DNA from: Isoetes taiwanensis
Taxonomy: Eukaryota; Streptophyta; Lycopodiopsida; Isoetales; Isoetaceae
Direction: 5' to 3'
Assembly: GCA_021234155.1 (NCBI GenBank)
Contig: JAJEKV010000210.1
Coordinates: 219,501 to 283,500 of the forward strand
Length of the DNA stretch: 64,000 nucleotides
Shown here: positions 2,725 through 59,292 of the stretch, piece by piece
How positions within the stretch are numbered: position 1 is the first letter of the stretch
How the letters are laid out: each line of letters starts with the position of its first letter
Notes under the pieces: model-generated
Databases searched by the model: none
Seen by the model: only the letters and a program-made list of their open reading frames with translations
Told to the model about the DNA's origin: nothing
Program-made: the position numbers and the translations under genes

Positions 2725-2752
2725 GCCCAGCAACGCTGGGCACCCTAACTAG
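2725..2752 (+). mobile_element. Helitron 3' terminus
   Basis: The perfect hairpin GCCCAGCAACGCTGGGC (2725-2741) is followed 11 nt later by the terminal CTAG (2749-2752), and the next base is T. This is the standard Helitron 3' structure: a subterminal hairpin, CTRR, and insertion between A and T. The same 17-nt hairpin and spacing recur at 40290-40317. I could not place its 5' TC end with confidence. The sequence after the terminus is LINE ORF1 coding sequence, so the Helitron seems to have inserted into that LINE. Confidence 0.7.
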
Positions 2753-2756
2753 TATG

Positions 2757-4550
2757 TTATGATCGAATGTGGCAACAAAAGATCTGCCAACCTGCTACTA
2801 AATCGAGGTCCTTTAACTCTGGAGTCCTTTCAACTCACCTTTCTAAAGTGGGATCCCAAATTTGAGGTTGCCAATTTGGATAATCTTTGTGTAGCCTCCA
2901 CCACGCTTCATGGTTTGAATCCTATCTACTGGAATGAGGACTGTCTCAAACTGCTCTTTGGCTCCATTGGATCTTACATTTGCTTTGAATTTTAAGCCAT
3001 ATAGACCTCCCAAATCCTTTGTCCAAATTGATATATCCAAAGATGTCCCCTCAAATTCCTTTCCTTGATGTTTTTGGTCAAAAGCCTCCCCTCTCTCTTA
3101 GATGGGCCGGGTGCGCCTCCTCATTGTCAAAGCGTAGGGCGGGCACTTACGGTATGATTCTTGCAAGGAGAATTCACCTTCCACTTAAATGGATATAAGT
3201 TATCGGGGCTGATGGTAAGGAGTCAATAAGCAAGTCAAAGCGACAAGTCGGCCCGACAAGTCAATCCTAAGGAAAACAAAGAATGTGCGGGGGCGAGTTG
3301 AGGTCGGCACAAAATGCAATTACCTTGTGCACCGGTTTCTATTTGTGACTCTCACGAATAACAATAAGAACATTGGTCCTTCAAGCATCTTATCCAAGGA
3401 CAAAGACTTTCGGTGGACCAAAGTCAATGGTAGTTATAAAAGGATTGAGAGAAAGAAAAATCGAAAGACCCCGGTCTCAAATTGATATATTTGGGGATGC
3501 ACCTCCTGTTAGACATCAACCCCAAAAAGGAACTTAAAGAAAAGGGTTCTCGGCAAGTTAAGGTGCTCTACAATCTTTGGACCATCGACTAATGGCATCA
3601 ACAAGGTCAACAGTCTACACGATACTTTGAACAAAATCATTTTAGATGCCAAAAACCTAAACACCAACAATAAGAGTTCACACCATTTGAACTCTAACAG
3701 GGGTAAGAGTAGTTCATTAATCAAGAAAGGCAGTCATGAAGAGGTCTTAAAAAACAGGTCTCTATGACCAATGATCAGCTCCTTTGTGAGGTAATTGACG
3801 AAGGATACTTTGGTTGAAATGGTGCTCTGCTCCAATTCGCTTACGCAAGTGATAAAGATTTTTCTAAATCAAAGGAGAGGGACCGTGGTCTTATGCAATA
3901 TTGAAGATTCAAGGGACAACACCAAAAATCTAAGTGGTAACACCAATCAATTTCAGGTATTGGCTAACCTTAATTTCGAGATAGATTTGGATGTACTTGT
4001 TGGGAAATTCCTATATTGATCCACTCAACCATTCCCAATCTCCTTTTATTGATCTCTCTCCGACCCTCGATCCCTTTCTTCCTCCACCATCCCTCATAGG
4101 CGATGTAATATTCTTTGAGCAATTAGCTTCCCTTGCAAGAGGGTCTTTGCTCTCAATCACAGCAAGCATGCCATATTATGGAGGATGAGATTGTGCAAGA
4201 TACTCCAGAAAGAGAGCTGGTGAGTTTTGAACATGATCAGGATAATTATGAAGAAATTTACAAGAAAGAGGACTCCAGCAAATTGATTACTCATGAGGTG
4301 GCTGGCTGAACTATCGGGTCAGGTTTTCTCTCCTCCTTGTCATAATCATTTGGAGACTCCTAATTTTAATTGTGATCTTCCTGCTAGCATAAATGAAATG
4401 TTTGAATTCATTCCTGGTGGGGCTTCTGATGTCAGTGATATGGAAATTGATAAGGAAAACTGGGAGGGAGATAAATACCTAGCTGAGTGTCCTCATAAAG
4501 AAGATACTTCTAGACATGCCCCGACTGTGAAGGAAAACGGCCAAAGCTAA
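2757..4550 (+). pseudogene. LINE ORF1 remnant (DUF4283 nucleic-acid-binding protein)
   Basis: The frame at 2759-2995 matches the second half of the DUF4283 domain: NRGPLTLESF, then LTFLKWDPKFE, then the LHGLNPIYWNEDCL stretch corresponding to the WV-LPGLP-YW region, and FGSIGSYI. A shifted frame continues with FVQIDISKDVP, the usual end of the domain. DUF4283 proteins are the RNA-binding ORF1 products of plant L1-like elements. The tail to 4550 is acidic and Ser/Asn-rich (EDSRDNTKN, SDVSDMEIDKENWEGD), as is common before ORF2. Several frameshifts are present. The N-terminal half of the domain is missing here, but a similar half is present in inverted form at 9310-9560. Confidence 0.7.
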
Positions 4551-5310: not shown

Positions 5311-5899
5311 AACCTCATCCCTTTGGGATAATTGCTATGTCACTAGTGATGAAGGAAATATTGTATCAGATCATCAGTCTCAATTTTTATGTACTAAGCA
5401 GCTGACTCAAACTCCCAGGGATGGTAATGTATCTTATAAATTTAACTGTGCTCTTCTAGAAAATGACTCCTTTATTAGAGATTTCAAAGACTTCTATCTC
5501 AATATCCCTGATGAGGGTAATCAGCAGTCAATGAAAAGATTCTATAGCAAAATTAAGAAGGTCAAGAGTTGGATTAAAGGTTGGTCTAAAAGCAAACATT
5601 TGGCCAAAATCAATGAAAAAGAGCAATTGCTTGCCAAGATGAGGGATATTAGATCTCTCCTTCAAGAAGATCCTCACAATCTTAATCTTCATATAGGGAG
5701 GAGCTTCTAGAAAATTACCTAAAAGTGTTGAGGAAATTGAGGCCAAGAGCTCTTCTATCAAATGTAAGATTAAATTTAATAAGGACATGGACTATGGTAG
5801 CTCGGTTTCTTCTTCAAAATGGCTAAAGTCGGACTTCTTAGAAATGCTATCACTCAAGTTCGGACCGACACTTTGGAATATCTCCGAATGACTCCAAGC

Positions 5900-12406: not shown

Positions 12407-12776
12407 ATAGAGGGCTGAGATAGCTTATGGAACACAGCCAACCCTGAGGTTTAAAGAAGTAACCACGTTCACGGCATCAGCCATAGCAAACCAGATATGT
12501 TTGCTTTTATAATTGTGCATGGTTATGGTATGTTTCATTGACTTTGGCATTTCAACCCTTATTGTTGGTAGTTCTCTAAAGACAGTGATGAAACCCAAGA
12601 AGGATAAAGGACGAATTCATGCCTACATTGTACGCTATGTTATTGTTTGCAATTTGAATGTATTTTTTTGGGAAAACCTTTTATCCATGTCTCATATGTA
12701 CTATCATATAGTACTCATGTCTTCTAGCTAACACTTGTTTAAGCATCTAACACCATACATAATTAAGAAAAAACAA

Positions 12777-12845
12777 AAAAAGCAAGACCCTCCAGAAATC
12801 GAACCTGGATTATACCATTGGGTCAGACATACCTGAAGGTCCATG
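12777..12845 (-). ncRNA. tRNA-like / SINE-like Pol III sequence (B box plus T-run)
   Basis: On the minus strand CCAGGTTCGATTTCTGG forms a T-arm (5-bp stem, 7-nt loop) and contains a near-consensus B box (GGTTCGATTTC). Downstream comes GGGTCTTGC and then two T-runs that could end Pol III transcription. A convincing A box and full cloverleaf are not visible, so this is more likely a tRNA-derived SINE piece or tRNA relic than a working tRNA gene. It is kept in A2 (about 33945-34015) and A3 (about 55400-55475). Confidence 0.35.
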
Positions 12846-13230
12846 CTAATGTTGGAACAAAAGTTGAAAGCTGCAAGAAGGTAATTATACAAAAGAAATA
12901 CAATAGAAAGGATCAATTAAATGCAAAGGCAATTTAAATTCCAAGAGGAAACACCACAACTTGATGTAGTATTGGTGCCATCACCTCATCAACACTGCTA
13001 ATACCGAATGACAACATAAAACATGATCATGATGGTCCGGCCATCACTTAGGCACCATCTCTGTAACACCAATCAATGCATGGAATAATTCATGCATGGA
13101 ACGAACATTATGCTTGAAATTATGATGTTTTACTTTGTTGGTGAAATTACGTATTAGCTTATAATATATCCTATTACGAGTTCAATTGAGTAGTTTGCAA
13201 GGTGATTGATAAAATCAGCTCTGAACTTTG

Positions 13231-13425
13231 TTGCTAGAAAGTGAGAGATGCAACATGCAAATACTAGAAAGGTTACAAGGTGTTAGGCGCCATTTTCATG
13301 ATGACATCACTCAATTTTTCATAGTCTATGAACAAAACAAAGTGATGTCATGGTGAAAATAGCGCCTAACACCTCTGACCATCTTTCTAATATTTGCATA
13401 TCACATTTCTCGCTTTCTAGAAGCA
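13231..13425. repeat. Long inverted-repeat hairpin, copy 1 (foldback/MITE-like)
   Basis: The left arm (13231-13311) and right arm (13341-13425) are reverse complements with scattered mismatches over more than 80 bp, separated by a loop of about 29 nt. The core pairs TGTTAGGCGCCATTTTCATG with CATGGTGAAAATAGCGCCTA. A transcript would fold into a long imperfect hairpin. The same structure occurs in A2 and A3. It could be a MITE or a small-RNA precursor; no transposase or clear target duplication is seen. Confidence 0.75.
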
Positions 13426-14390
13426 ACATGAAGAGTTGTTGTTATTATTCACTTTGCCCTATTAGACAAAATTTTAAAGAGCTCTTACCCAGTTAATTCC
13501 GTTAATTGAGAAATGTGGGTTACAAATGAGAACTATCTTTAAATTACAAGAGCTAAGTTTCGATCCTAGGTGGGCGAGTAGTAGTTTAGCATTAGTCATA
13601 GACGACACCAAGGACGGGCTTAACCCCAAAAGTGGATTTCAAAGTGCTAAATTAGAATCACATTTATAAAAAATTTATCGGATGGCTCTTGGCTAATCTC
13701 CTTAAACCCCCTACTCTCTGCCAACTCATTTACTTGGCTTCTATAGTTGTATTCAAAGCATGCAATCTAGAGTTGGAAGTACACTTCTATATGGCAGCTA
13801 AGACTATATTTAGGTCATGCAATCTAGAGTTGACATTACACTTCCATTGTCATCAATATCATAATATGTCTTAGAATATCACAACAATTTGACCAAGCCT
13901 TCATTACATACGTGTAATGGTGAAGAGAGTTTGCAGCTATGAACTTTTAGTTCGGGTTTGTGGGTAATCTGTTTTATGACATTTAAGGAAGGACTTAAAT
14001 GTAAAGCATCGTATCTCTCTCTCTAACGGTTGTAATGGTGAGGAGGGTTTGCAGCAAGCAATCGTCCCTTCCCTCCCTCCCTCCTTCCATGGGTGTTTTC
14101 CTGGCCTGCTTGCTTGATGTCCTAATGTTTACTTATACAAACCTGGTTGCAACTGCCCAAATGAAATATGCTGCATTGCTCATGCATTGCTTATAGATGG
14201 CTAATTTGCAAACGCAAATGGATTATAGTTGGCAATTTTTTCTACCATTGGAATTCATCGTTGAAGATTTACTTATGTTTTATTTGGAGCGCAGCTGCAC
14301 AAGGATTATGGTATATTGAAGGCTATGCTGCTTTCAAGAGAATTATGAAAAGGCATATGGTACAGGAACTATATGACCGATTTTCAACCA

Positions 14391-14525
14391 GTGAATATGG
14401 CAATTGCTCTATACTCATGGTGCTCTTATAATATAAAAGTATATGGCAAATTTCTATCTAGTGAATATGGCAATTGCTCTACACTCGGGGTACTCTTATA
14501 ATATAAAAAGTATATGGCAAAGTTC
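14391..14525. repeat. Internal 68-bp tandem duplication in block A
   Basis: The text GTGAATATGGCAATTGCTCT occurs twice (about 14391 and 14460), each followed by a similar GTACTCTTATAATATAAAA segment and GTATATGGCAAA. The same double structure is present in A2 (about 35566-35700) and A3 (about 56957-57095), so the duplication is older than the block triplication. Confidence 0.7.
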
Positions 14526-16101
14526 TTTTAGATAGACTTGGTTGGGTAATGGATGCAAGGTTTCATGTGTTTTATATTTTTCTCTTGTTTTGAGAAAGAA
14601 CAATTTGATTTGCAGGAAAATAGAAAGGTGCTATCCCGAGTTAGAACACGGTATTTAACATCTGGACCACATTGTAATTTTCCTACAAAAAGTGGATTCT
14701 AAAATAAGTGGACCTTCAAGTACCAAGAGCAAGTTCTTACGTCCTGCGCAACACCTGTGAAATGGCTGCAAAATATGATAGTTCCTCTTCCTTCACTGTG
14801 CCTATAGTGTCACAGATAGCATCAACCACAGGACAAAGGTCTTGCTTGAGAGAGTTTTTTTTTCCGTTGGAAGTTTCGATATTTACACCTGAATGAACAG
14901 AGCTGCGCATGTTGGAAACTCTAAACTTTATTCTCGAGATGTCTAAAGCCAAGTCTCAAACTCACCTTTTTGAACTTGAAGGTATGCGTTAGAATTAGAA
15001 GAATAGAAGATGCATGCTCATTGATTTTTTCTCTTGCTTTAGAATGGTGCCTTCATTTCAGTCATGCTTTTATGTTGAAGACAAGTGATGGATTTATTTC
15101 TTGACAGGGCATTACCCAAGTAAGTTACCACTATTATTCCTAAACCCTTCAACAATATCGGATCGATACACAACATCGGCTTGGTTGCGTTGACTTGATA
15201 CAAAACATAGATCGTTTTCCAGTTGCATTGGCAAATCTTCTCTTTCATGAAATTGGTAAGCATAGTTGATTAATAAAAAGAGGTGATTGTTTTCTGATTA
15301 GATAATATAATTGCAGGATAGGTGTGTTAACATGATAGCCCATTTTTTGATGTGTTTATGCACACTGGAGAGCAAGCTGTTGGCACAGTTGGAGAACCTT
15401 TCCTAATGCTAATTGTATAGCCGGAGTTAATGTCCAGTTCAATGCTTAGAGGTTTGCCTTCCCCCTTTGATGTGGATCAATGCAATTATTGCCGCAAAAG
15501 GTTTTGTTGTACAATACATTGTTTGGTGTTTCAAATTGTTCTTGAATGCCATTACGGCCATATGTGAACTCAGGCTTCGCATTAGTTGATTATCATTTTA
15601 GATATTGTAATACTTGCTAGTGGTTTGGGAGAAGTTCGCACTTAAAAATTGAGGTGCAATTGAGGCATGTTCATCTTCATCTGTTCTGTTCATTTGAGAT
15701 GGAATTTTTATGTGATAAATCCATATACGGCGCTCATTTCCATTCCAGCAACATGTCCCATTCTAGCTCTGTCTTTCCTGCATCCTTACAACTTCTCCTT
15801 CGCTTTCGTCTTATTTGTTACTTTTTTATAAAGTGCAGCATTGTGTCATGATTCTACTCTTTGTGATTGAAGGTTTATTTGTGATTAAAGGTTTATTTTG
15901 TTTGTGGAGCACAACAAACTGCGAACAAGTCATTCTTTAATATGTTTATACTTTGAATTGCAGAGTTATTTAAAAGTATGTCATTATACATTTCAGAATC
16001 ATATGTTGTAGCACACAAATAAGGAGCATAACATGTGAAATCATAAGGTGCATGATAAATGATATGGAAGGTCCATGGAATCATGCAAACCAAACGATTC
16101 A

Positions 16102-33532: not shown

Positions 33533-34400
33533 AGGGCTAAGATAGCTTAGGGAACACAGCCAACACCGAGGTTTAAAGAAGTATCCACATTCATGGCAAC
33601 ACCAATTCCAAACCAGATATGTTTGCTTTTATAATTGTGCATGGTTATGGTATGTTTCATTGACTTTGGCATTTCAACCCTTATTGTTGGTAGTTCTCTA
33701 AAGACAGTGATGAAACCCAAGAAGAATAAAGGATGAATTCATGCCTACATTGTACGCTATGTTATTGTTTGCAATTTGAATGTATTTTTTTGGGGAAAAC
33801 CTTTTATCCATGTCTGATACGTGCTATCATATAGTACTCATGTCTTCTAGCTGACACTTGTTCATACGTACTATCATATAGTACCCATGTCTTCTAGCTA
33901 ACACTTGTTTAAGCATCTATCACCATACATAATTAAAGAAAAAAAAAAAAAGCGAGACCCTCCAGAAATTGAACCTGGATTATACCATTGGGTGAGACAT
34001 ACCTGAAGGTCCATGCTAATGTTGGAACAAAAGTTGAAAGCTGCAAGAAAATAATTATACAAAAGAAATACAATAGAAAGGATCAATTGAATGCAAAGGC
34101 AATTTAAATTCCAAGAGGAAATACCACAACTTGATGTAGTATTGGTGCCATCACCTCATCAACACTGCTAATACCAAATAACAAAATAAAACATGATCAT
34201 GATGGTCCCGCCATCACTTAGGCACCATCTCCATAACACAAATCAATGCATGGAATAATCCATGCATGGAACGAGCAGTATGATTGAAATTATGATGTTT
34301 TACTTTGTTGGTGAAATTACGTATTAGCTTATAATATATCCTATTATAAGTTCAATTGAGTAGTTTGCAAGGCGATTGATAAAATCAGCTCTGAACTTTG

Positions 34401-34595
34401 TTGCTAGAAAGTGAGAGATGCAACATGCAAATACTAGAAAGGTTACAAGGTGTTAGGCGCCATTTTCATGATGACATCACTCAATTTTTCATAGTCTATG
34501 AACAAAACAAAGTGATGTCATGGTGAAAATAGCGCCTAACACCTCTGTCCATCTTTCTAATATTTGCATATCACATTTCTCGCTTTCTAGAAGCA
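34401..34595. repeat. Long inverted-repeat hairpin, copy 2
   Basis: Left arm 34401-34481 and right arm 34511-34595, matching the copy at 13231-13425 almost exactly. Pairing of the GGTGTTAGGCGCC core is intact. Confidence 0.75.
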
Positions 34596-35052
34596 ACATG
34601 AAGAGGAGTTGTTATTAGACAAAATTTTAAAGAGCTCTTACCCAGTTAATTCCGTTAATTGAGAAATGTGGGTTACAAATGAGAACTATCTTTAAACTAC
34701 AAGAGCTAAGTTTCGATCCTAGGTGGGCGAGTAGTAGTTTAGCATTAGTCATAGACGACACCAAGAACGGGCTTAACCCTAAAAGTGGATTTCAAAGTGC
34801 TAAATTAGCATCACATTTATAAGAAATTTATCGGATGGCTCTTGGCTAATCTCCTTAAACCCCCTACTCTCTGCCAACTCATTTACTTGGCTTCTATAGC
34901 AATCTAGAGTTGGAAGTACACTTCTATATGGCAGCTAAGACTATATTTAGGTCATGCAATCTAGAGTTGACATTAGACTTCCATTGCCATCTATCACAAC
35001 AATTTGACCAAGCCTTCATTACATACCTGTAATGGTGAAGAGAGTTTGCGGC

Positions 35053-35199
35053 TATGAACTTTTAGTTCGGGTTTGTGGGTAATCTGTTTTATGACATTTA
35101 AGGAAGGACTTAAATGTAAAGCATCAACTTTTAGTTCGGGTTTGTGGGTAATCTGTTTTGTTTTATGACATTTAAGGAAGGACTTAAATGTAAAGCATC
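35053..35199. repeat. Private tandem duplication in A2
   Basis: AACTTTTAGTTCGGGTTTGT through TTAAATGTAAAGCATC occurs twice in a row (about 35057 and 35127). The other two A copies have it once. Confidence 0.8.
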
Positions 35200-36142
35200 G
35201 TATTTCTCTCTCTAACGTTTGTAATGGTGAGGAGGGTTTGCAGCAATCAGCAATCGTCCCTTCTCTCCCTTCCTCCTGGCCTGCTTGCTTGATGTCCTAA
35301 TGTTTACTTACGCAAACCTGGTTGCAACTGCCCAAATGAAACATGCTGCATTGCTCATGCATTGCTTATAGATGGCTAATTTGCAAACGCAAATGGATTA
35401 TAGTTGGCAATTTTTTCTACCATTGGAATTCATTGTTGAAGATTTACTTATGTTTTATTTGGAGCACAGATGCACAAGGATTATAGTATATTGAAGGCCA
35501 TGCTGCTTTCAAGAGAATTATGGAAAGGCATATGGTACAGGAACTATATGACCGATTTTCAACCAGTGAATATGGCAATTGCTCTATACTCATGGTGCTC
35601 TTATAATATAAAAGTATATGGCAAAGTTCTATCTAGTGAATATGGCAATTGCTCTATACTCGGGGTACTCTTTATATTATAAAAAGTATATGGCAAAGTT
35701 CTTTTAGATAGACTTGGTTGGGTAATGGATGCAATGATTCATGTGTTTTATGTTTTTCTCTTGTTTTGAGAAAGATATGTTTATAGAAAGAACAATTTGA
35801 TTTGCAGGAAAATAGAAAGGTGCTATCCAGAGTTAGAACACGGTATTTAACATCTGGACCACATTGTAATTTTCCTGCAAAAAGTGGATTCTAAAATAAG
35901 TGGACCTTCAGTACCAAGAGCAAGTTCTTACGTCCTGCAACACCTGTGAAATGGCTGCAAAATATGATAGTTCCTCTTCCTTCACTGTGACTATAGTGTC
36001 ACAGATAACATCACCACAGGACAAAGGTCTTGCTTGAGAGAGTTTTTTTTCCATTGGAAGTTTCGACATTTACACCTGAATGAGCAGAGCTGCGCATGTT
36101 GGAAACTTTAAACTTTATTCTCGATATGTCTAAAGCCAACTC

Positions 36143-37213
36143 TCAAACTGTAAATTGATTGATAGATGTGCTCACTAACAAAAGGTCTGAATCTGCTGAA
36201 GTTGTTCTATCAACAAATACAACTGTTAATATGACAATTCCAGCAGTTTTAGGGCCAACTGAAATAACTGATTTTGACCTCAGTGAATTTATCGAAAGCT
36301 TTGTTAGGCATGAAGATACACTGCCAAGGGAGCTTTGTTCTGCTTTATATAGAATTCACTCCTTGTTGCAAGACTTAAGATATCCATGGTACACCACAAA
36401 CTACTTAAGCACTAGGGAGAATCATTGAACACCGGACCTCTTCCACACCCCATTTCACTAAGTCTTTGGACATTTAAAAGTAGCATGTATGCTTCATAAA
36501 TGAGGCATGAATGACATTTTTAGTCACCAACTCCCTATAACATATGATTAAGAGGGTATTGCCATTTTTTAGTCACCAACTCCTATAATATATGAATAGC
36601 GAGGGGATATTGTTCTACCTCGTGGAAATCTTTGGACACTTTAAAGGTAGCATATTTGCTTGGTTATATAACTGAATTTCCTACTTTGTTTAGTATCCAT
36701 TTGTATCGCTCTTCTTATTTTCGTGAATGACTAACAATAGCCGGATGTTGCTTCTTATTTTCGAGAGAGAAAAGTATCTAAACCTAACAACAAATGATAT
36801 GTGCCTTCCAATTTTCGAGGAGAAGGGGTTATCTACCAAATCTAACAAGATGCTTAAACAATGTTTACGATATGCAGTGTAGAAGCTAAATTATAAAGAG
36901 AAAACAAAGGAAATAACACCGCCCCGAGGGCACTCAAACATACCTCTCAAAACAGAGTTACAAATGGCAACGAAAGATACCTTAAATATAAGTGCTTGCT
37001 GGGCTTTCGGAAAAATGCGAGATCACGGCTATTTTGTGTTACCGGAAAATGATCGACCACTTCAACAAGTAGATCGCACCACTGCATCATCCACGCCGTG
37101 CCGAATAGCGGCTTCGCGGCCAGATGTTACCTGCCCTAACCAAGGCTCGGTTTATTTGCCCTAAACCTGTGTTACGGTGCCACGTGCACGTAGATATTAG
37201 AGATGTTTGATCA
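36143..37213. repeat. Repeat block E, copy 1
   Basis: It follows A2 and matches E2 (57573-58607). It starts GTAAATTGATTGATAGATG and is cut at 37213 by a Helitron. The first 270 bp contain a frame that is kept open in both copies. The last 500 bp show an unusual pattern of differences from E2 in which CAG or CTG in one copy appears as CG, CGG or CGAG in the other. Confidence 0.85.
36159..36428 (+). CDS. Conserved short frame, unknown protein (copy 1)
   Basis: 89 codons from ATG 36159. The frame is also open upstream of the ATG for a few codons, so it may be an exon rather than a complete gene. Visible pieces are [33 protein letters not shown] and [20 protein letters not shown]. The E2 copy (57585-57854) is open over the same length and differs at about four bases, three of them changing residues. 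The flanking sequence has many more indels. The LP-EL---L--I--L pattern faintly recalls the N-terminal helix of ING proteins, but this is too weak to name it. Confidence 0.4.
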
Positions 37214-38734
37214 TCTTATATTATAATGTTATTGTGTAAGTGTTGGACCCAGCCCTAGATCCAACGGCTTAGATCTAGGGCTGCAGATCGAACGGCCGTG
37301 GCAGAAAAAAGCACTTCCTTCACTCCAATCCATCACCATAGGCTACGGCTACCCTAGCTACGACTACTCTAGCTACGGCTACGGCAATGGTGCAATCAGG
37401 AGCCGGAATGGAAAAGATAGCTAGGTATGGCAATGATGCAAAGGAAAGTTCGCGAGCGAAGGGAAGCAAATAGCCGGATTGCTATGGTTTGGTTTGGTTT
37501 TAGAGTCTTCAGTGGAACAAATAGCATACAGATTGATGGAAGCGGAGCCATTTGAGCCTTTCTTCATAGCCATAGCCGTGTGAGGAAGTCGAAGATCGAG
37601 AATCTGAGTTGTAGAAGGAGGCAGCCCATGTTTCGAAACCAATTGAAGAAAGCGGTGAGTTTTAGAGTATAGTTCTGATTAAAAGTTGTTTTAGAGTTTA
37701 GTTCACGGTTTTAAAGAGATGGTTAATCTTGTCAAGTGCGAGAAAGAAAGCTGTGCATCCTCCTAGAAGGAAACGGACCTCAAAGGCAAATTGAAAAATA
37801 ACAATCCTTGGTGCAATGGTATAAGTCTGCGTGACACTGAAACTGGTAATGTAACTGGTAATGTTCGTGGCAAGAATGCAGTGTCCATACATGCATGTTT
37901 GCATATCTCAACGCTTAACAGGCTTGGTCACCTTTGCTCTAGCGATGAGTTCACGACCTATGCCCATGCCCTACATTGCCTAAAGCGGCTTATTCATTTG
38001 TTGTTCAACAAGATTATCTTTGTAGGGAGCTTGCCGTTTGCAAAACACGGTGGAGCTTGGAGCTCAAATGACATGAAGTGTTCAGCCAAAGATATAAAAA
38101 GAAAAAGCTTTGGAAGGAAAAGATATAGTCATCTTACTCTTTTGTGCGAATGATGCGTAGAGCGGGACTTTTGGATAAAGGATGAGATAATAACTCTAGC
38201 ATTAAGAGGTGTATTTGGAAGCCCTACAATTTACGCTATATGTATTCATTACGCACCACAAAAGGTAAGGCTTTGTATCCAACTTATTGCACCGATTGTT
38301 TTTCCTTCTTATAGAAGGTAGTTTTTAGTTTTAGTCTACATGTTGGATAAGGATGAAGGCCCGAGAAATGCGTGGACTACGAAGTTAAATCATCAAGCGC
38401 CCATATGCACTAAGCGCCCATATGCACTAAGTCATAATTCCAAAGGTAATTTCGCTTTCTAGATTTAAGTTGGTTTGATCATTTCAGTTTCTAGACCATT
38501 ACGATTATCTATAAGTTGCTTTGATCATTGGCTTCTCTATTCCTACAGCAAATAGTAGAAGAATAATTGATGGCCCTCAGAGGCTTTAGAGATAAAGGAA
38601 GATACTGATAGAAAGTGGATTGTATTGATATCTCAAATGCAAAAGGAACTCCAACTTAGCTGTTTTGTTATGGTATTTGGAACCAATATATTGAATTTCT
38701 CACAAGTAAATATGAAGATCAAGAGTTCTTGAAT

Positions 38735-39060
38735 CCATCACTCCTATGATCTTGCAAGTTTCAACTTTGTTGATCCTGCTAAAAGAAACACCGCAATGTT
38801 AACTAATACTGGATGGACTGCAATGAGATGGAAAGTTGATAATCCAGGTTCGAGTAATATTTTTTTACAGTTTTGATCCTAAGGGCATAGTATTTATGAT
38901 GTGGGTATGTATCATTGTGATGCAGGTCTTTGGCTTATGCATTACCACTTTGATGTCCATGTGAGTTGGGGAATGGGGACTGTCTTTATTGTTGGGATGC
39001 AGATAAGACCTTCCAGGTCCTTCTACAGATTTGTCCACCTGTTGACTAAAAGATTAACCA
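38735..39060 (+). pseudogene. Captured laccase (multicopper oxidase) C-terminal fragment
   Basis: Two exons of a plant laccase lie within the Helitron. Exon one gives FNFVDPAKRNTAMLTNTGWT, then AMRWKVDNPG. A 78-bp intron (38848-38925, GT...AG) follows. Exon two gives LWLMHYHFDVHVSWGMGTVF and IV, then in another frame KTFQVLLQICPPVD, close to the usual laccase end. Intact laccases have HCH in this last copper motif, where Cys binds the type-1 copper. Here it is HYH (TGC to TAC), so electron entry would be lost. The kept intron means capture from genomic DNA, as is usual for Helitrons. Confidence 0.8.
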
Positions 39061-39173
39061 GTAATGTGCCAACTCAACATTGTTCACTTTGTATTTCATA
39101 GCCTATTCTGGTCATTATCAATATAATGCTTCGCTCTCTTTGCTATTAATATTTGTGCTTCTGTTTATCAAAT

Positions 39174-39187
39174 TGATATCAGAGCCA
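39174..39187 (+). other. Possible LTR primer-binding site
   Basis: TGATATCAGAGCC differs by one base from the tRNA-iMet-complementary TGGTATCAGAGCC used by many plant LTR elements, and an upstream TCA could be an LTR end. No gag/pol or second LTR was found inside the Helitron, so this may be chance or a small relic. Confidence 0.25.
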
Positions 39188-40349
39188 CAGCTATCAATTC
39201 GGTACCAAAGGAAGGGAACCACCAAACATCAGGTCTTAACATCAGACAAACAACACTACAAATAATCAAGTGCATCTGAACATCAGGTGGTTGTTACTGA
39301 ACACTAAAAAATAATTGTTTGTCCACTGTCAAAAACATGCTAGAGATGCAAATTTAGGAGAAAGCATTATCCACCTTTTCAATTGCAAATTCAGGTCCGA
39401 TGTCTTAGAGAAAGCATCCACCATATAAAAAAATCTGGTACCAGAGAAATTGATGATAATCAATTCAAATTACAACCTATGTTTGGTAAGGCCTTCGCAT
39501 GTGCCCCAACGCATCTTGGTAGGATATTGCATGAGTTCGTTTTACTTGCCTTATAAGTCTTGATGTAGTATTTTCAATACATTGTAATGATCTGGTGAAT
39601 ATAAGAATTAAATTATATAATTTTATTGGGGAAGCATTTTCAATACATTGTAATGATCTGGTGAATATAAGAATTCAACTATATAATTTTATTGTGGAAC
39701 TTTTATCTGTTATAAACAAGTTTAATTGAAGCTTTTCCATCAAGTCCCAAATTTAGTAGGGAGATAGACGAAAACTTGCCCAGAAAATGGCCTCAATGAC
39801 TGTATAAAATGCAAGGGGAATGATCAATTTATTTTAATTAGGAGAAATTGTGTGCTCGATAAAATTTTCCTTGATATAATGACTACCTAAAACATCTTAA
39901 CGCGAAGGTTGATAGTGCTTTAAACCCATCGAAAATAGGACCTCTTCCATGCACTATTGCTACATAAGCTTTTAATTATCATATATTAACAACTACGTCA
40001 ACCACCTTCTAGCGTAAAAACTACCTTCACCTCGGCAATTCAATTCAATTTTTATAGTCCAATAACGCTCAATAACGCCAAGAATAAACATGTATAATAA
40101 GCAATAACATGCCCAATACCACCAAGAAGTAAATCCCCTTCTACATAATGTTCCAATAGCAGGTATTTGAATATTTGCAAGCTCCAAATCATGCCCAGCA
40201 ACGCGACTATTATAATAAAAATTTACAGAAGTTGGATTATACTGCAAACTTTTCTAATTGCGGCCAAAATATTTACAGGCTGAACTTATGCCCAGCAACG
40301 CTGGGCACCATTACTAGTTATTATATTATTATCTAAACATACATTTAAT

Positions 40350-40841: not shown

Positions 40842-42490
40842 ATGTTTAGAGGTGTAGCTGCTCGGGCTCTTCATTTGTCACGCGGTATGGAAAAACCTAG
40901 CGGAAGAGTTACATACACTATAGTTTTGGAAGGATGGTGCAGGTTTAGCTTGCAAGATATGAATGCAAGGGGGTCATATAATGTTGCCCGTGTTGCACAG
41001 CTTGACATGACAAAAGCAGGTCATCTTTCAATATTGGAACTGTGCTTTGCTACAACTATTCATATAATGGTTTGCTAGTTATTATGTTGCCTACAAGATG
41101 ATCCCTGCATTTTTGTTATATCCCAGAGATGGAGCAGGCTAAAATACAGGCCCTTGGTCGTCAGTTTAAAATCCTAGCAAAGCGAAGTTGGTTTGATTGC
41201 TTGAACAGTGCATGGGATGCCACATGATTGTCTTGAATTTGTAGCAACAAGTAATTATGAGGATATTGAATATGCACAAAAATTTCATTATCATGATATA
41301 TCAATAGCCTTACCATCTATCCATGTACACCTTATACGTTTTCCAAGTCACCAATTTAGAGAATAGATGAGTTAAGGCCGTCATTTTAAGGGTCAAGACA
41401 GAATGCATGATTAGTTCGGAAAGTTGCAGATGATGTCATGGAACAACATGCCAATGGAAATGACTGGCACACAAAATAATGTTGTATAGGTGGTTGTTGA
41501 TGTTTCCTGATAATGGCCCTTCTCTTTCAGAGACAGAATTCTGTGGGGCGGACCAAGGTTTTACTAGAAACAACTCCTGCCTACAGGCTAGCAGATATAT
41601 TTGTGGCTAGTTTTGAAGGGAGTTTTGAGGACCGCCTTGCCATGCTAGATGTTGTAGATCTTAAGCAGCGGATGACAAAGGCAAATGAAGTCATTACTCG
41701 CCATCTTCAGGTATGTTCAACTGTCAATGTAGCTTGAAGTAAATTAGCTATTTTCTATGTCTGACAATAAAAGGATGTCATTTGGCTTTGGTTATGTGTT
41801 ACTGTGAACTTTTATTGGGCTGAAGGCTGTACGCTAGATTTCTTTGTTTTGCTATGCTATTACGTTTTAATCGTGGTTAGGACTTTTTAGCTTAAAATAT
41901 TTGTATGAATCAGACTATTCGTGTGGCTGAGAAAATATCGCAGAAGGTTGAAGGGCAACTTTCAAAATCTCAAAAGGAGTTTTGCTTTCGTCAATGTGTA
42001 ACCGCCTTTGGATGTTGTTTCAATTTGTAGTTACAATGGAGGCACTAGTTATCATTCTTGATCAACCAAGAAGTGCACTTCTTGGTGTGCAGATGAAAGC
42101 TATTAAAGAAGAGTTAGGTGATAATGAAGATGATGATGATGATGTTGCTGCATTCAAAAGAAAAATGCAAAGTGCAGGCATGCCAGCAAATGTTTGGAAA
42201 CACGCACAAAGAGAGCTTCGGTGAGATTGGTTAGACAAGTAACTGTGGTTCTGGTATGTAGACACTAACTAAAATGTTGCGAGGAGATGCGGAAAATGCA
42301 ACCTCAACAAGGGATATGGAAGCTCTAGAACATAGATAGAGGTTCTCGCTGATTTACCATGGCAAGTAAGCAAATTGAGGAGCATAAGCTTGACCTGGCT
42401 CTTTGCAAAGGAGAGGTTTGATAGTGAACGATATGGTCTTGGAAAAGTCAAAAAGGATTATTGAGTACTTGGCTGCATGCGGAAGGTAGC
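40842..42490 (+). pseudogene. LON2: Peroxisomal Lon protease homologue (LON2-type), truncated pseudogene
   Basis: A decayed copy of the N-terminal part of a plant LON2 gene with introns kept. Exons: 40845-41019 (RGVAARALHLSRGMEKPSGR, ending LDMTKA), 41127-41195 (EMEQAKIQALGRQFK), 41531-41710 (VGRTKVLLETTPAYRLADIF, then DLKQRMTKANEVITRHLQ), 41914-41997 (IRVAEKISQKVEGQLSKSQK), 42093-42220 (MKAIKEELGDNEDDDDD, then MQSAGMPANVWKHAQREL), then frameshifted 42270-42485 (MRKMQPQQ, EVLADLPW, IEEHKLDLALCK, RYGLGKVK, RIIEYLA). GT-AG borders still fit at 41020-41126, 41711-41913 and 41998-42092. LON2 is an ATP-dependent peroxisomal matrix protease. The substrate-binding N-domain is represented, but the AAA+ and Ser/Lys protease domains are absent, and at least three frameshifts and a stop occur. 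Confidence 0.9.
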
Positions 42491-54969: not shown

Positions 54970-55368
54970 AGGGCTGAGATAGCTTATGGAACACAGCCAA
55001 CCCCGAGGTTTAAAGAAGTAACCAACTCACGGCAGCAGCCATTCCAAACCAGATTTGTTTGCTTTTATAATTGTGCATGGTTATGGTATGTTTCATTGAC
55101 TTTGGCATTTCAACCCTTATTGTTGGTAGTTCTCTAAAGATAGTGATGAAACCCAAGAAGGATAAAGAATGAATTCATGCCTACATTGTACGCTATGTTA
55201 TTGTTTGCAATTTGAATGTATTTTTTTGGGAAAACCTTTTATCCATGTCTCATATGTACTATCATATAGTACTCATGTCTTCTAGCTAACACTTGTTCAT
55301 ACGTACTATCATATAGTACTCATGTCTTCTAGCTAACACTTGTTTAAGCATCTATCACCATACATAAT

Positions 55369-55372
<4 letters not shown>

Positions 55373-55399
<27 letters not shown>

Positions 55400-55411
55400 A
55401 AAAAAAAAAGC
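55373..55411. repeat. (GAA)n microsatellite
   Basis: About nine AAG units followed by an A-run, at the A-rich edge of the tRNA-like sequence. The other copies have only an A-run here, so it expanded in A3. Confidence 0.85.
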
Positions 55412-55839
55412 GAGACCCTCCAGAAATCGAACCTGGATTATACCATTGGGTAAGACATACCTGAAGGTCCATGCTAATGTTGGAACAAAAGTTGAAAGCT
55501 GCAAGAAAGTAATTATACAAAAGAAATACAATAGAAAGGATCAATTAAATGCAAAGGCAATTTAAATTCCAAGAGGAAACACCACAACTTGATGTAGTTA
55601 TCAACACTGCTAATACCGAATGACAAAATAAAACATGATCATGATAGTCCGGCCATCACTTAGGCACCTCTGTAACATCAATCAATGCATGGAATAATTC
55701 ATGCATGGAACTAATAGTATGCTTGAAATTATGATGTTTTACTTCGTAAATGAAATTACGTATTAGCTTACAATATATCCTATTACGAGTTCAATTGAGT
55801 AGTTTGCAAGGCGATTGATAAAATCAGCTCTGAACTTTG

Positions 55840-56035
55840 TTGCTAGAAAGTGAGAGATGCAACATGCAAATACTAGAAAGGTTACAAGGTGTTAGGCGCC
55901 ATTTTCATGATGACATCACTAAATTTTTTATAGTCTATGAATAAAACAAAGTTATGTCATGGTGAAAATAGCGCCTAACACCTCTGCCCATCTTTCTAAT
56001 ATTTGCATATCACATTTCTCGCTTTCTAGAAGCAA
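55840..56035. repeat. Long inverted-repeat hairpin, copy 3
   Basis: Left arm 55840-55920 and right arm 55950-56035. Two or three extra mismatches compared with copies 1 and 2 (GTTATGTCAT in the right arm). The GGTGTTAGGCGCC core still pairs. Confidence 0.7.
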
Positions 56036-57355
56036 CATGAAGAGTTGTTATTAGTCACCTTGCCCTATTAGACAAAATTTTGAAGAGCTCTTACCCAGTT
56101 AATTCCGTTAATTGAGAAATGTGGGTTACAAATGAGAACTATCTTTAAATTACAAGAGCTAAGTTTCGATCCTAGGTGGGCGAGTAGTAGTTTAGCATTA
56201 GACACCAAGATCGGGCTTAACCCGAAAAGTGGATTTCAAAGTGCTAAATTAGAATCACATTAATAGGAAATTTATCGGGGTGGCTCTTGGCTAATCTCCT
56301 TGAACCCCATACTCTCTGCCAACTCATTTACTTGGTTTCTATAGTTATATTCAAAGCATGCAATCTAGAGTTGGAAGTACACTTCTATATGGCAGCTAAG
56401 TAAAGGTCATGCAATCTAGAGTTGACATTACACTTCCATTGCCATCAATATCATAATATGTCTCAGAATATCACAACAAGCCTTCATTACATACCTGTAA
56501 TGGTGAGGAGAGTTTGCAGCTATGAACTTTTAGTTCGGGTTTGTGGGTTGTCTGTTTTATGACATTTAAGGACTTAAATGTAAAGCATCGTATCTCTCTC
56601 TCTCTAAAGTTTGTAATGGTGAGGAGGGTTTGCAGCAATCGTCCCTTCCCTCCCTCCCTCCTTCCATGGGTGTTTTCCTGGCCTGCTTGCAAACCTGCTT
56701 GCAACTGCCCAAATGAAACATGTTGCATTGCTCATGCATTGCTTATATATATGGCTAATTTGCAAACGCAAATGGATTATAGTTGGCAATTTTTTCTACC
56801 ATTCGAATTCATTGTTGAAGATTTACTTTTATTTGGAGCACAGATGCACAAGGATTATGGTATATTGAAGGCTATGCTGCTTTCAAGAGAATTATGAAAA
56901 GGCATATGGTACAGGAACTATATGGTACAGGAACTATATGACCGATTTTCAACCAGTGAATATGGCAATTGCTCTATATTCATTGTGCTCTTATAATATA
57001 AAAGCATATGGCAAAGTTCTATCTAGTGAATATGGCAATTGCTCTATACTCGGGGTACTCTTATAATATAAAAAGTATATGGCAAAGTTCTTTTAGATAG
57101 ACTTGGTTGGGTAATGGATGCAAGGTTTCATGTGTTTTATGTTTTTCTCTTGTTTTGAGAAAGATATGTTTATAGAAAGAACAATTTGATTTGCAGGAAA
57201 ATAGAAAGGTGCTATCCCGAGTTAGGACACGGTATTTAACATCTGGACCAGATTGTAATTTTCCTGCAAAAAGTGGATTCTAAAATAAGTGGACCTTCAA
57301 GTACCAAGAGTAAGTTCTTACCTCCTGCAACACCTGTGAGCACAACTATGACATA

Positions 57356-57565
57356 TTAAATGGCTGCAAAATATGATAGTTCCTCTTCCTTCAGGCATAT
57401 TTTAAGGCCTGTGACTATAGTGTCACAGATAGCATCAACCACAGGACAAAGGTCTTGCTTGCGAGAGTTTTTTTTTCCGTTGGAAGTTTCGATATTTACA
57501 CCTGAATGAGCAGAGCTGCGCATGTTGGAAACTCTAAACTTTATTCTCGAGATGTCTAAAGCCAA
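57356..57565 (-). CDS. Minus-strand short frame at the end of block A
   Basis: Encodes LDISRIKFRVSNMRSSAHSG, VNIETSNGKKN, then DLCPVVDAICDTIVTG and KEEELSYFAAI. A similar frame is open in A1 (14737-14952); A3 has a six-residue insertion (GLKICL). No family is recognised. A2 carries small indels in the same span, so its frame is broken. It may be a gene fragment. Confidence 0.25.
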   Translation of the reverse strand: MALDISRIKFRVSNMRSSAHSGVNIETSNGKKNSRKQDLCPVVDAICDTIVTGLKICLKEEELSYFAAI

Positions 57566-57572
57566 GTCTTAA

Positions 57573-58607
57573 AATGTAAATTGATTGATAGATGTGCTCA
57601 CTAACAAAAGGTCTGAATCTGCTGAAGTTGTTCTATCAACAAATACAACTGTTAATATGACAATTCCACCAGTTTTAGGGTCAACTGAAATAACTGATTT
57701 TGACCTCAGTGAATTTATCAAAAGCTTTGTTAGGCATGAAGATACACTGCCAAGGGAGCTTTGTTCTGCTTTATATAGAATTCACTCCTTATTGCAAGAC
57801 TTAAGATATCCATGGTACACCACAAACTACTTAAGCACTAGGGAGAATCATTGAACACCAGACCTCTTCCACACCCAGATTTCACTAAGTGCTGGACATT
57901 TAAAGGTAGCATGTATGCTTCATAAATGAGGCATGCATGACATTTTTTAGTCACCAACTCCCCATAACATATGATTAACAGGGTATTGCCATTTTTTAGT
58001 CACCAACTCCCTATAATATATGAATAGCAGGATATTGTTCTACCTCTTAAAGGTAGCATATTTGCTTGGTTATATAACTGAATTTCCTACTGTTTAGTAT
58101 CTATTTGTATCGCTCTTCTTATTTTCAGGACAGAAGCTAACAATAGCCAGATGTTGCTTCTTATTTTCAGAGAGAGAAGTATCTAAACCTAACAACAGCG
58201 ATATGTGCCTTCCAATTTTCAGAGAAGGGGTTATCTACCAAATCTAACAAGATGCTTAAACAATGTTTACGATATGCCGCGCCGAGAAGCTAAATTATAA
58301 AGAGAAAACAAAGGAAATAACACGGTCTGAGGGCACTCAAACATACCTCTGAAACAGATTACAAATGGCAACGAAAGATACCTTAAATATAAGTGCCGCT
58401 GGCTTTCAGAAAAATGCAGATCACAGCTATTTTGTGTTACCTGGAAAATGATCGACCACTTCAGCGCAGTCGCACCCTGCATCCACGCCACAGCGGAATA
58501 GCAGAAGCTCGCAGCAGATGTTACCTGCCCTAACCCTAAACCTGTGTTAGCCTTATCACCGACCGACGTGGTGCCACGTGCATGTAGATATTAAAGATGT
58601 TTGATCA
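57573..58607. repeat. Repeat block E, copy 2
   Basis: Counterpart of E1. It ends at GATCATTATTAT, where a terminal-inverted-repeat element follows. The paralogue E1 has a Helitron inserted at the same place. Confidence 0.85.
57585..57854 (+). CDS. Conserved short frame, unknown protein (copy 2)
   Basis: Same 89-codon frame as 36159-36428: [19 protein letters not shown], then [17 protein letters not shown] and [20 protein letters not shown]. The four differences are Ala to Pro, Pro to Ser, Glu to Lys and one silent change. It is open in both copies despite neighbouring indels. Unknown family, possibly one exon. Confidence 0.4.
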   Translation: MIDVLTNKRSESAEVVLSTNTTVNMTIPPVLGSTEITDFDLSEFIKSFVRHEDTLPRELCSALYRIHSLLQDLRYPWYTTNYLSTRENH

Positions 58608-58614
58608 TTATTAT

Positions 58615-59292
58615 GGGTGAAATCACACTAGAGGCCGGCCAGGAATTGATTTTGTGACACGAAGATGCCCAAAAAATTCTTGTCACACCTGCGCCCAAGA
58701 TTGGAATGCCATGTCAGAAATCTAGCTGTTGTGCTGGATTTATGTGGAGGAACGGAGGAAAGAATTTTAGGGCAAGGAAATCTGATTTTGTGCTTAGACT
58801 GTAACCAAATCCATTGTCATCAGTCGGATTCATGCTGAAATCTATTTTTCGGCTTCATTGCAAGCAAATCGGTGTTAATTCTTTCAGATTTTTGCTGTTA
58901 GAGCTCCAGTCCGCAAATTTTCACAGTTCAAAACCAAAAAAAAAAAATCAATCTTTGACTTCATTGCAAGGCAAATCAACCTATTCGGATTTTTGTTCCT
59001 CGCTCCAGCTTGAAATCTGATGCCGACAGGCTACAATCGATACTCTTTGCAGGTATAAGAACCCTAAACTCGCCAGTTCGATGATCTTTTCTACAACTGT
59101 GCTGAGCTTGCGCTGGCCATGATCTTGGGCAGGGGGTATTCCCCGGCCAGGAACATTACGGGTGCCCAGGAATTTTTGTGTTTTGGGCACCTCTGGTGTG
59201 ATAGGAGGTGCGCCCAAGTTTGAGAAACACTGCTTTGTGATTGGTTTAAGCTTTTTTTTTAATCTTGGGCGGCTACAGGTGTGATTCCACCC
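58615..59292. mobile_element. 678-bp terminal-inverted-repeat DNA element
   Basis: It begins GGGTGAAATCACACTAGAGG and ends with the near reverse complement (ACAGGTGTGATTCCACCC). Subterminal CACACCTGCGCCCAAGATT pairs with AATCTTGGGCGG and CAGGTGTG near the right end. TTATTAT flanks both sides (58608-58614, 59293-59299). The unoccupied E1 site already has two TTATTAT copies, so this is not proof of a target duplication. A 45-codon frame is present but no transposase. Superfamily not assigned. Confidence 0.7.

Follow-up and report, generated by a model that had tools for sequence, protein, structure and literature searches.

A 3,104-bp segment of the window (the whole 64,000-nt stretch of Isoetes taiwanensis DNA analyzed here) has ends resembling those of Helitron transposons and contains part of a laccase gene. 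The locus raises the questions of whether the segment is a Helitron, how the laccase piece came to lie inside it, and whether an altered copper-site residue in that piece says anything about laccase function. The coordinates of the features are collected in Table 1.

Table 1. Features of the window discussed in the text (^ marks an insertion point or element boundary).
Feature	Position	Strand	Evidence or remarks
Left flank, homologous to paralog as far as the junction	36043..37213	+	Sequence comparison within the window
Non-autonomous Helitron	37214..40317	+	3,104 bp, A^TC...CTAG^T; both ends recur in L001 within unrelated flanks; junction table
5′ terminus TCTTATATTATAATG	37214..37228	+	3,314 exact copies, 22 of reversed control; preceded by A in 2,908
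Tail of penultimate laccase exon, captured	38741..38847 (start approximate)	+	PF07731, E 4.5e-16 with both exons joined; DNA match to L011 starts at 38741
Retained laccase intron, GT...AG	38848..38925	+	78 nt; same position in aligned laccase genes, interior partly alignable
Last laccase exon, captured, to donor-aligned stop	38926..39045	+	HYH in place of HCH; 10-nt gap relative to siblings
Laccase 3′ UTR-like stretch	39046..39094 (end approximate)	+	Limit of the BLAST match to L011 (39094)
3′ terminal hairpin	40289..40307	+	8-bp stem, 3-nt loop; 17-mer with 5,412 exact copies, 0 of reversed control; fold
3′ end CTAG, then T	40314..40317	+	CTAGT/CTAGV counts; junction table
Paralogous insertion site A^T without Helitron	58607..58608	+	Comparison of left flank, right flank and insert
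MITE-like insert in paralogous site	58615..59292	.	678 bp, inverted-repeat ends, TIR GGGTGRAATCACAC, 7-bp TTATTAT on both sides

Terminal sequences and their abundance in the genome

The left junction of the element reads TTTGATCA^TCTTATATTATAATG at 37214 and the right junction GCCCAGCAACGCTGGGCACCATTACTAG^TTATTAT at 40317. We observed several hallmarks of Helitrons – the 5′ TC and 3′ CTAG ends (CTRR in the general pattern) are constant among copies, a short G+C-rich hairpin lies ahead of the 3′ end within the 5–12 nt expected, and insertion falls between A and T with no target duplication. In a junction table, TC...CTAG ends and an A^T insertion context are common to the window element and the related loci L001 and L004–L007; no terminal inverted repeats are visible by eye in the end bases of the same table. 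Folded as single-stranded DNA, the 3′ hairpin reaches −9.5 kcal/mol (z −5.25), and none of 200 shuffles folded equally well.

We searched the 1.66-Gb genome for the exact end sequences, with reversed sequences as controls. The hairpin 17-mer occurs at 5,412 places (reversed control, 0) and the 5′ 15-mer at 3,314 (reversed control, 22), counts so far above the controls that the ends are not a matter of chance. Such a search for the pair of ends had been proposed in the original prediction, and it returned thousands of copies of each. The hairpin is followed within 0–16 nt by CTAGT in 5,056 matches (a few places being counted twice) and by CTAGV in 79, among which a nearer CTAGT is also present in 56 and absent in 23. 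Pairing of 5′ with 3′ ends could be read from the listed places, the first of the genome (contigs C2–C47): there, of the 77 listed 5′ ends, 32 are followed 0.15–12 kb downstream by a 3′ end on the same strand, whereas a 3′ end in the wrong direction was counted for 7 and one on the wrong strand for 5. The base before the 5′ 15-mer is A in 2,908 of 3,314 places; the remaining 406, which have another base, count against our explanation.

The junctions, the fold and the genome counts all agree with the original prediction that both termini obey Helitron rules, with A^TC at one end and a hairpin and CTAG^T at the other. The segment is almost certainly a non-autonomous member of a large, very abundant Helitron family – a degree of confidence that we attach jointly to this assignment and to the account of movement, capture and decay given below. 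Elsewhere in the window, a second exact family hairpin with CTAG^T lies at 2725–2753 (+), and a degenerate hairpin at 2206 (+) faces a family 5′ end at 2250 (−), within the region 2206–2250.

A second copy and its unfilled sites

Among 40 scored places of 1,789 candidates, the sole other near-complete copy was L001 (C1030:8463786–8467438, minus strand), which aligns from base 1 to base 3104 of the window element and is lengthened by an inverted-repeat insert of 555 bp that follows window position 39100. The end bases of the two copies are identical and their flanks unrelated; the original prediction had named a lack of other copies sharing both termini as the finding that would speak against it, and L001 has both. 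L001 lies within a repeat. From 40 listed matches to its right flank we cut out five loci, one of them L001's own place, and all four other copies of the host repeat are unfilled and join at A^T. The flanks are directly contiguous in three of these, and in the fourth an A-run beside the junction is longer by two A. L001 therefore inserted precisely between A and T and duplicated no target bases.

An exact empty site had also been predicted inside the window, at the paralogous E2/D3 junction. The junction is correctly placed and its left half is solid: the left flank matches 57424–58607 at 89% with 31 gap openings, and the alignment ends exactly at 37213/58607. The right half is less than was claimed, as the paralog is split by the MITE-like insert. 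To the right of the junction the paralog reads TTATTAT, the 678-bp insert, TTATTAT again and then CTAAACATACAT, and the window reads TTATTATATTATTATCTAAACATACAT; their likeness amounts to about 19 bases (TTATTAT...CTAAACATACAT). From about 40349 the right flank of the window element is another dispersed repeat, with 38 further places among 40 scored candidates. The shortness of this site on the right counts against our explanation; a clean site is available for L001.

These comparisons bear on the alternative that a segmental duplication or an ordinary laccase pseudogene accounts for the whole segment, its Helitron-like ends being coincidental. The window does hold diverged repeat blocks at a spacing of about 21 kb, and a laccase cluster exists on contigs C1043 and C907, but L001 has the same end bases in unrelated flanks and its site occurs unfilled – observations on which we rejected an origin by segmental duplication – and laccase similarity stops well inside the element. 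We give this alternative next to no credence, and continue with the segment as a Helitron.

The diverged blocks lie at 12469–14960, 33591–36342 and 55027–58607, and one of them includes a match to the retinoblastoma A domain (36159–36428; PF01858, E 2.4e-9). In the right flank, two fragments resembling the LON protease substrate-binding domain (40842–41078 and 41513–41737; PF02190, E 3e-4 and 9.8e-5, both under the curated cut-off) probably represent a pseudogene.

A laccase piece with its intron

The joined exon parts encode 57 amino acids that match Pfam Cu-oxidase_2 (PF07731, E 4.5e-16) at profile positions 80–133 of 137, and their best solved match is the plant laccase 6klg (7.1e-17). The donor-aligned stop is at 39043–39045. 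A genome protein search with the piece gave 110 matches, which included copies of the Helitron as well as numerous laccase genes, the latter in clusters on C1043 and C907. We fetched seven laccase loci for comparison; the DNA match to the closest, L011, spans 38741–39094 at 74%. Across the 11 Helitron laccase pieces, identity is 71.0–78.3% to L011 and 59–78% to six laccase genes taken together.

The GT-AG intron occupies the same position in the window piece and in the laccase genes, and parts of the intron and of the 3′ UTR are alignable. Upstream of 38741, comparison with the fetched laccase loci found no laccase similarity. Retention of the intron next to non-laccase sequence is the pattern expected of capture at the DNA level, as the original prediction had argued from the exon-intron-exon structure. 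The homology is confined to 38741–39094; it does not extend across the Helitron ends, the outcome that the original prediction had named as speaking against it.

Arrival by a processed (RNA) route or within a nested transposon would be a different history for the piece, and one for which the other inserted repeats of the window and the insert in L001 offer some precedent. The intron nonetheless sits where the laccase genes have it and can be aligned in part, and the alignment of copies has neither a poly-A tract nor separate transposon boundaries around 38741–39094. We consider such a history very improbable and favor capture of genomic DNA.

The expected donor was found in part: laccase genes with an intron at the same position exist, but the exact donor is absent among the seven fetched loci, where no gene is closer than about 72–78% and the closest is about 72–74% identical to the window piece. 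In a FastTree phylogeny built on a few hundred columns, a split divides the Helitron pieces from the laccase genes, with several weak nodes. A single capture before amplification is likely, though not proven. Helitron 3′ ends of the window family also occur near two laccase genes (L012:2627–2706, 85%; L017:1138–1211, 73%).

Decay of the laccase piece

All ten related Helitron loci that we fetched (L001–L010) retain some laccase piece, with L008 and L009 lacking about 38741–38874 and L004 lacking 35 nt of the last exon. In the window the HCH motif of laccase is not intact – its Cys codon, at 38943–38945, is TAC (Tyr) – and some ten bases kept by the siblings are missing further along the last exon. 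The same codon is TAC in L001 (HYH), AAC in L002 (HNH) and deleted in L004; it is TGC in L003 and L005–L010 (7 of 10 loci), followed by CTC in L008 and L009.

The replacement of the type-1 copper Cys by Tyr was thus correctly noted in the original prediction, but with TGC kept in most siblings it has no bearing on laccase function. A functional change of the copper site was rejected, as the substitution is limited to the window and L001, and L002 has another codon. Because most sibling loci keep TGC, the change is, as far as sequence comparison goes, a post-capture decay step of an already dead fragment.

It is conceivable that the fragment is nevertheless in use, with the element transcribed and the laccase 3′ end serving for splicing, as a transcript end, or as a source of small RNAs directed at the laccase cluster. 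Its sense orientation, retained GT-AG intron, stop and 3′ UTR similarity would suit such a role, as would its at least partial retention in 10 of 10 related loci, and a review describes in one of its passages captured sequences in maize as siRNA reservoirs (PMC13317346). Against this, the window frame is broken upstream, the Cys is lost and the 10-nt gap is present; L004, L008 and L009 have large deletions; and identity to the closest fetched laccase is only about 71–78%. We judge a present use very unlikely, at a few chances in a hundred. There is likewise only a slim prospect that the Helitron subfamily puts the laccase 3′ end to work, either in its transcripts (which would gain an intron that can be spliced, a stop and a 3′ end) or through small RNAs touching the laccase genes of the tandem cluster, and that the piece persisted for this reason over several amplification rounds. 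Capture followed by decay remains our preferred reading.

Differences between copies at CAG/CTG triplets

The window element and L001 are identical over 38451–40317 except for the L001 insert, and differ once (at 37328) in 37214–37450. Between 37450 and 38451 differences are frequent, mostly small indels. A recombination or gene-conversion mosaic, suggested by a first alignment with 97% identity in the left part and 100% in the right part, was rejected, since the left-hand differences are mostly small indels at CAG/CTG. Within 37214–38600, 22 of 42 CAG/CTG triplets of L001 are altered in the window, as against 7.6% of other triplets; conversely, just 1 of 21 window triplets is altered in L001. 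The figure for 38600–39100 is 0 of 13. The left flank at 36701–37213, compared with the paralog, has 19 of 23 CAG/CTG triplets altered and other triplets altered at 25%. Among 57 differing columns at about 37854–38470, both relatives examined side with L001 in 37 and with the window in 12; in 2 a single relative sides with L001, and the other 6 give no clear answer.

Errors of long-read base calling at methylated CHG, if left uncorrected, would yield altered CAG/CTG. We think it likely that roughly 36.5–38.46 kb contains systematic base-call error at CAG/CTG, an assembly artefact; this is a better reading than a mosaic, though 12 columns point the opposite way. The region does not reach the laccase piece.

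Further features of the element include a 217-bp stretch at 37497–37714 that is 89–94% alike to places on C1018 and C1076 (seven genome matches), with a common minus-strand frame of about 51 codons. A domain search of this stretch found no Pfam family; it is perhaps a second captured piece. A guess from five residues that it is the start of a proteasome gene was rejected, as the matching loci L025 and L026 have no such gene and the Pfam result was null. At 39567–39699 lies a 67-bp tandem duplication (94% alike), which may be particular to the window and L001; most relatives align as far as either of its two copies. For the 128-aa and 84-aa frames within the window Helitron, the domain search gave no accepted Pfam family and one sub-threshold match.

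A candidate autonomous partner

A genome search with PF14214 scored 150 places of 1,813 candidates, and six Rep loci were fetched. In one of the six (on C1036), the exact hairpin and CTAG^T lie downstream of a Rep/helicase frame; two others have a hairpin variant with G-C replacing A-T pairs. The C1036 element (8550183–8558004, minus strand; 7,822 bp) contains an uninterrupted frame of 1,198 codons that combines PF14214 (E 3.8e-61) and PF05970 (E 1.5e-58), that is, Rep and a PIF1-type helicase. Its last 28 bases are the same as those of the window element, and its 5′ end is TCCTATATTATAATG, with A before it. The genome thus encodes a Rep/Hel-coding relative with matching ends, as the original prediction had anticipated, and we regard it as a candidate autonomous partner. 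The two elements resemble each other near the ends only, and the C1036 element starts with TCCT, not TCTT; we count both points against our explanation. The flanks of this element (L020/L024) read ...CCATCTTA^ and ^TATTATAATGTTTTAGTGC..., which suggests that its insertion point was an A^T in the 5′ end of a further Helitron of the family.

In our proposed account, the Rep/Hel protein of this element, or a similar one, would move the window element by rolling-circle (peel-and-paste) replication, for which the 3′ hairpin would be the stop signal. An ancestor of the subfamily would have taken up genomic DNA from the 3′ portion of a laccase gene, intron included, through template switching, filler-DNA repair or read-through beyond a 3′ end. 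The fragment, which has been amplified with the Helitron, would later have decayed, without enzyme function. The mechanism is drawn by analogy from a study of Helraiser, passages of which describe a nick at TC, unwinding, a stop at the hairpin, cleavage at CTAG and insertion at AT, as well as read-through as a way to acquire host DNA (PMC4778049). We hold this account, from family membership to decay, with very high confidence.

Comparison with known Helitrons

Plant Helitrons are well known to capture parts of genes (PMC13317346, PMC4528327). A literature search combining Helitron and laccase found no report of this capture in the titles and abstract openings of the papers listed, where absence is unproven. 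The finding leaves existing knowledge of Helitrons unchanged. It adds a high-copy family in a genome where such ends number in the thousands, and offers a clean worked example in which one genome displays the matching ends, a site still unfilled in other copies of the target, a candidate for the autonomous partner, a capture that kept its intron, and the decay that followed.

By anatomy, as judged from its ends and content, the window element is a familiar, canonical non-autonomous Helitron. Maize-type plant Helitrons, in descriptions that include these same two sources, share its TC/CTAG ends, 3′ hairpin, A^T target and lack of target duplication, and include non-autonomous copies with intron-containing gene pieces (PMC4528327, PMC13317346). 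They differ in genome and end sequences, and the donor in the window is a laccase gene; the comparison is one of descriptions. The bat element Helraiser/Helibat1 likewise has 5′-TC and CTAG-3′ and inserts at AT, with a palindrome situated some 11 nt ahead of its 3′ terminus and a RepHel protein with HUH nuclease and helicase, as passages of PMC4778049 state. Helraiser, however, is an animal element active in the laboratory (PMC4778049), whereas the window element is known from sequence alone and has another hairpin sequence.
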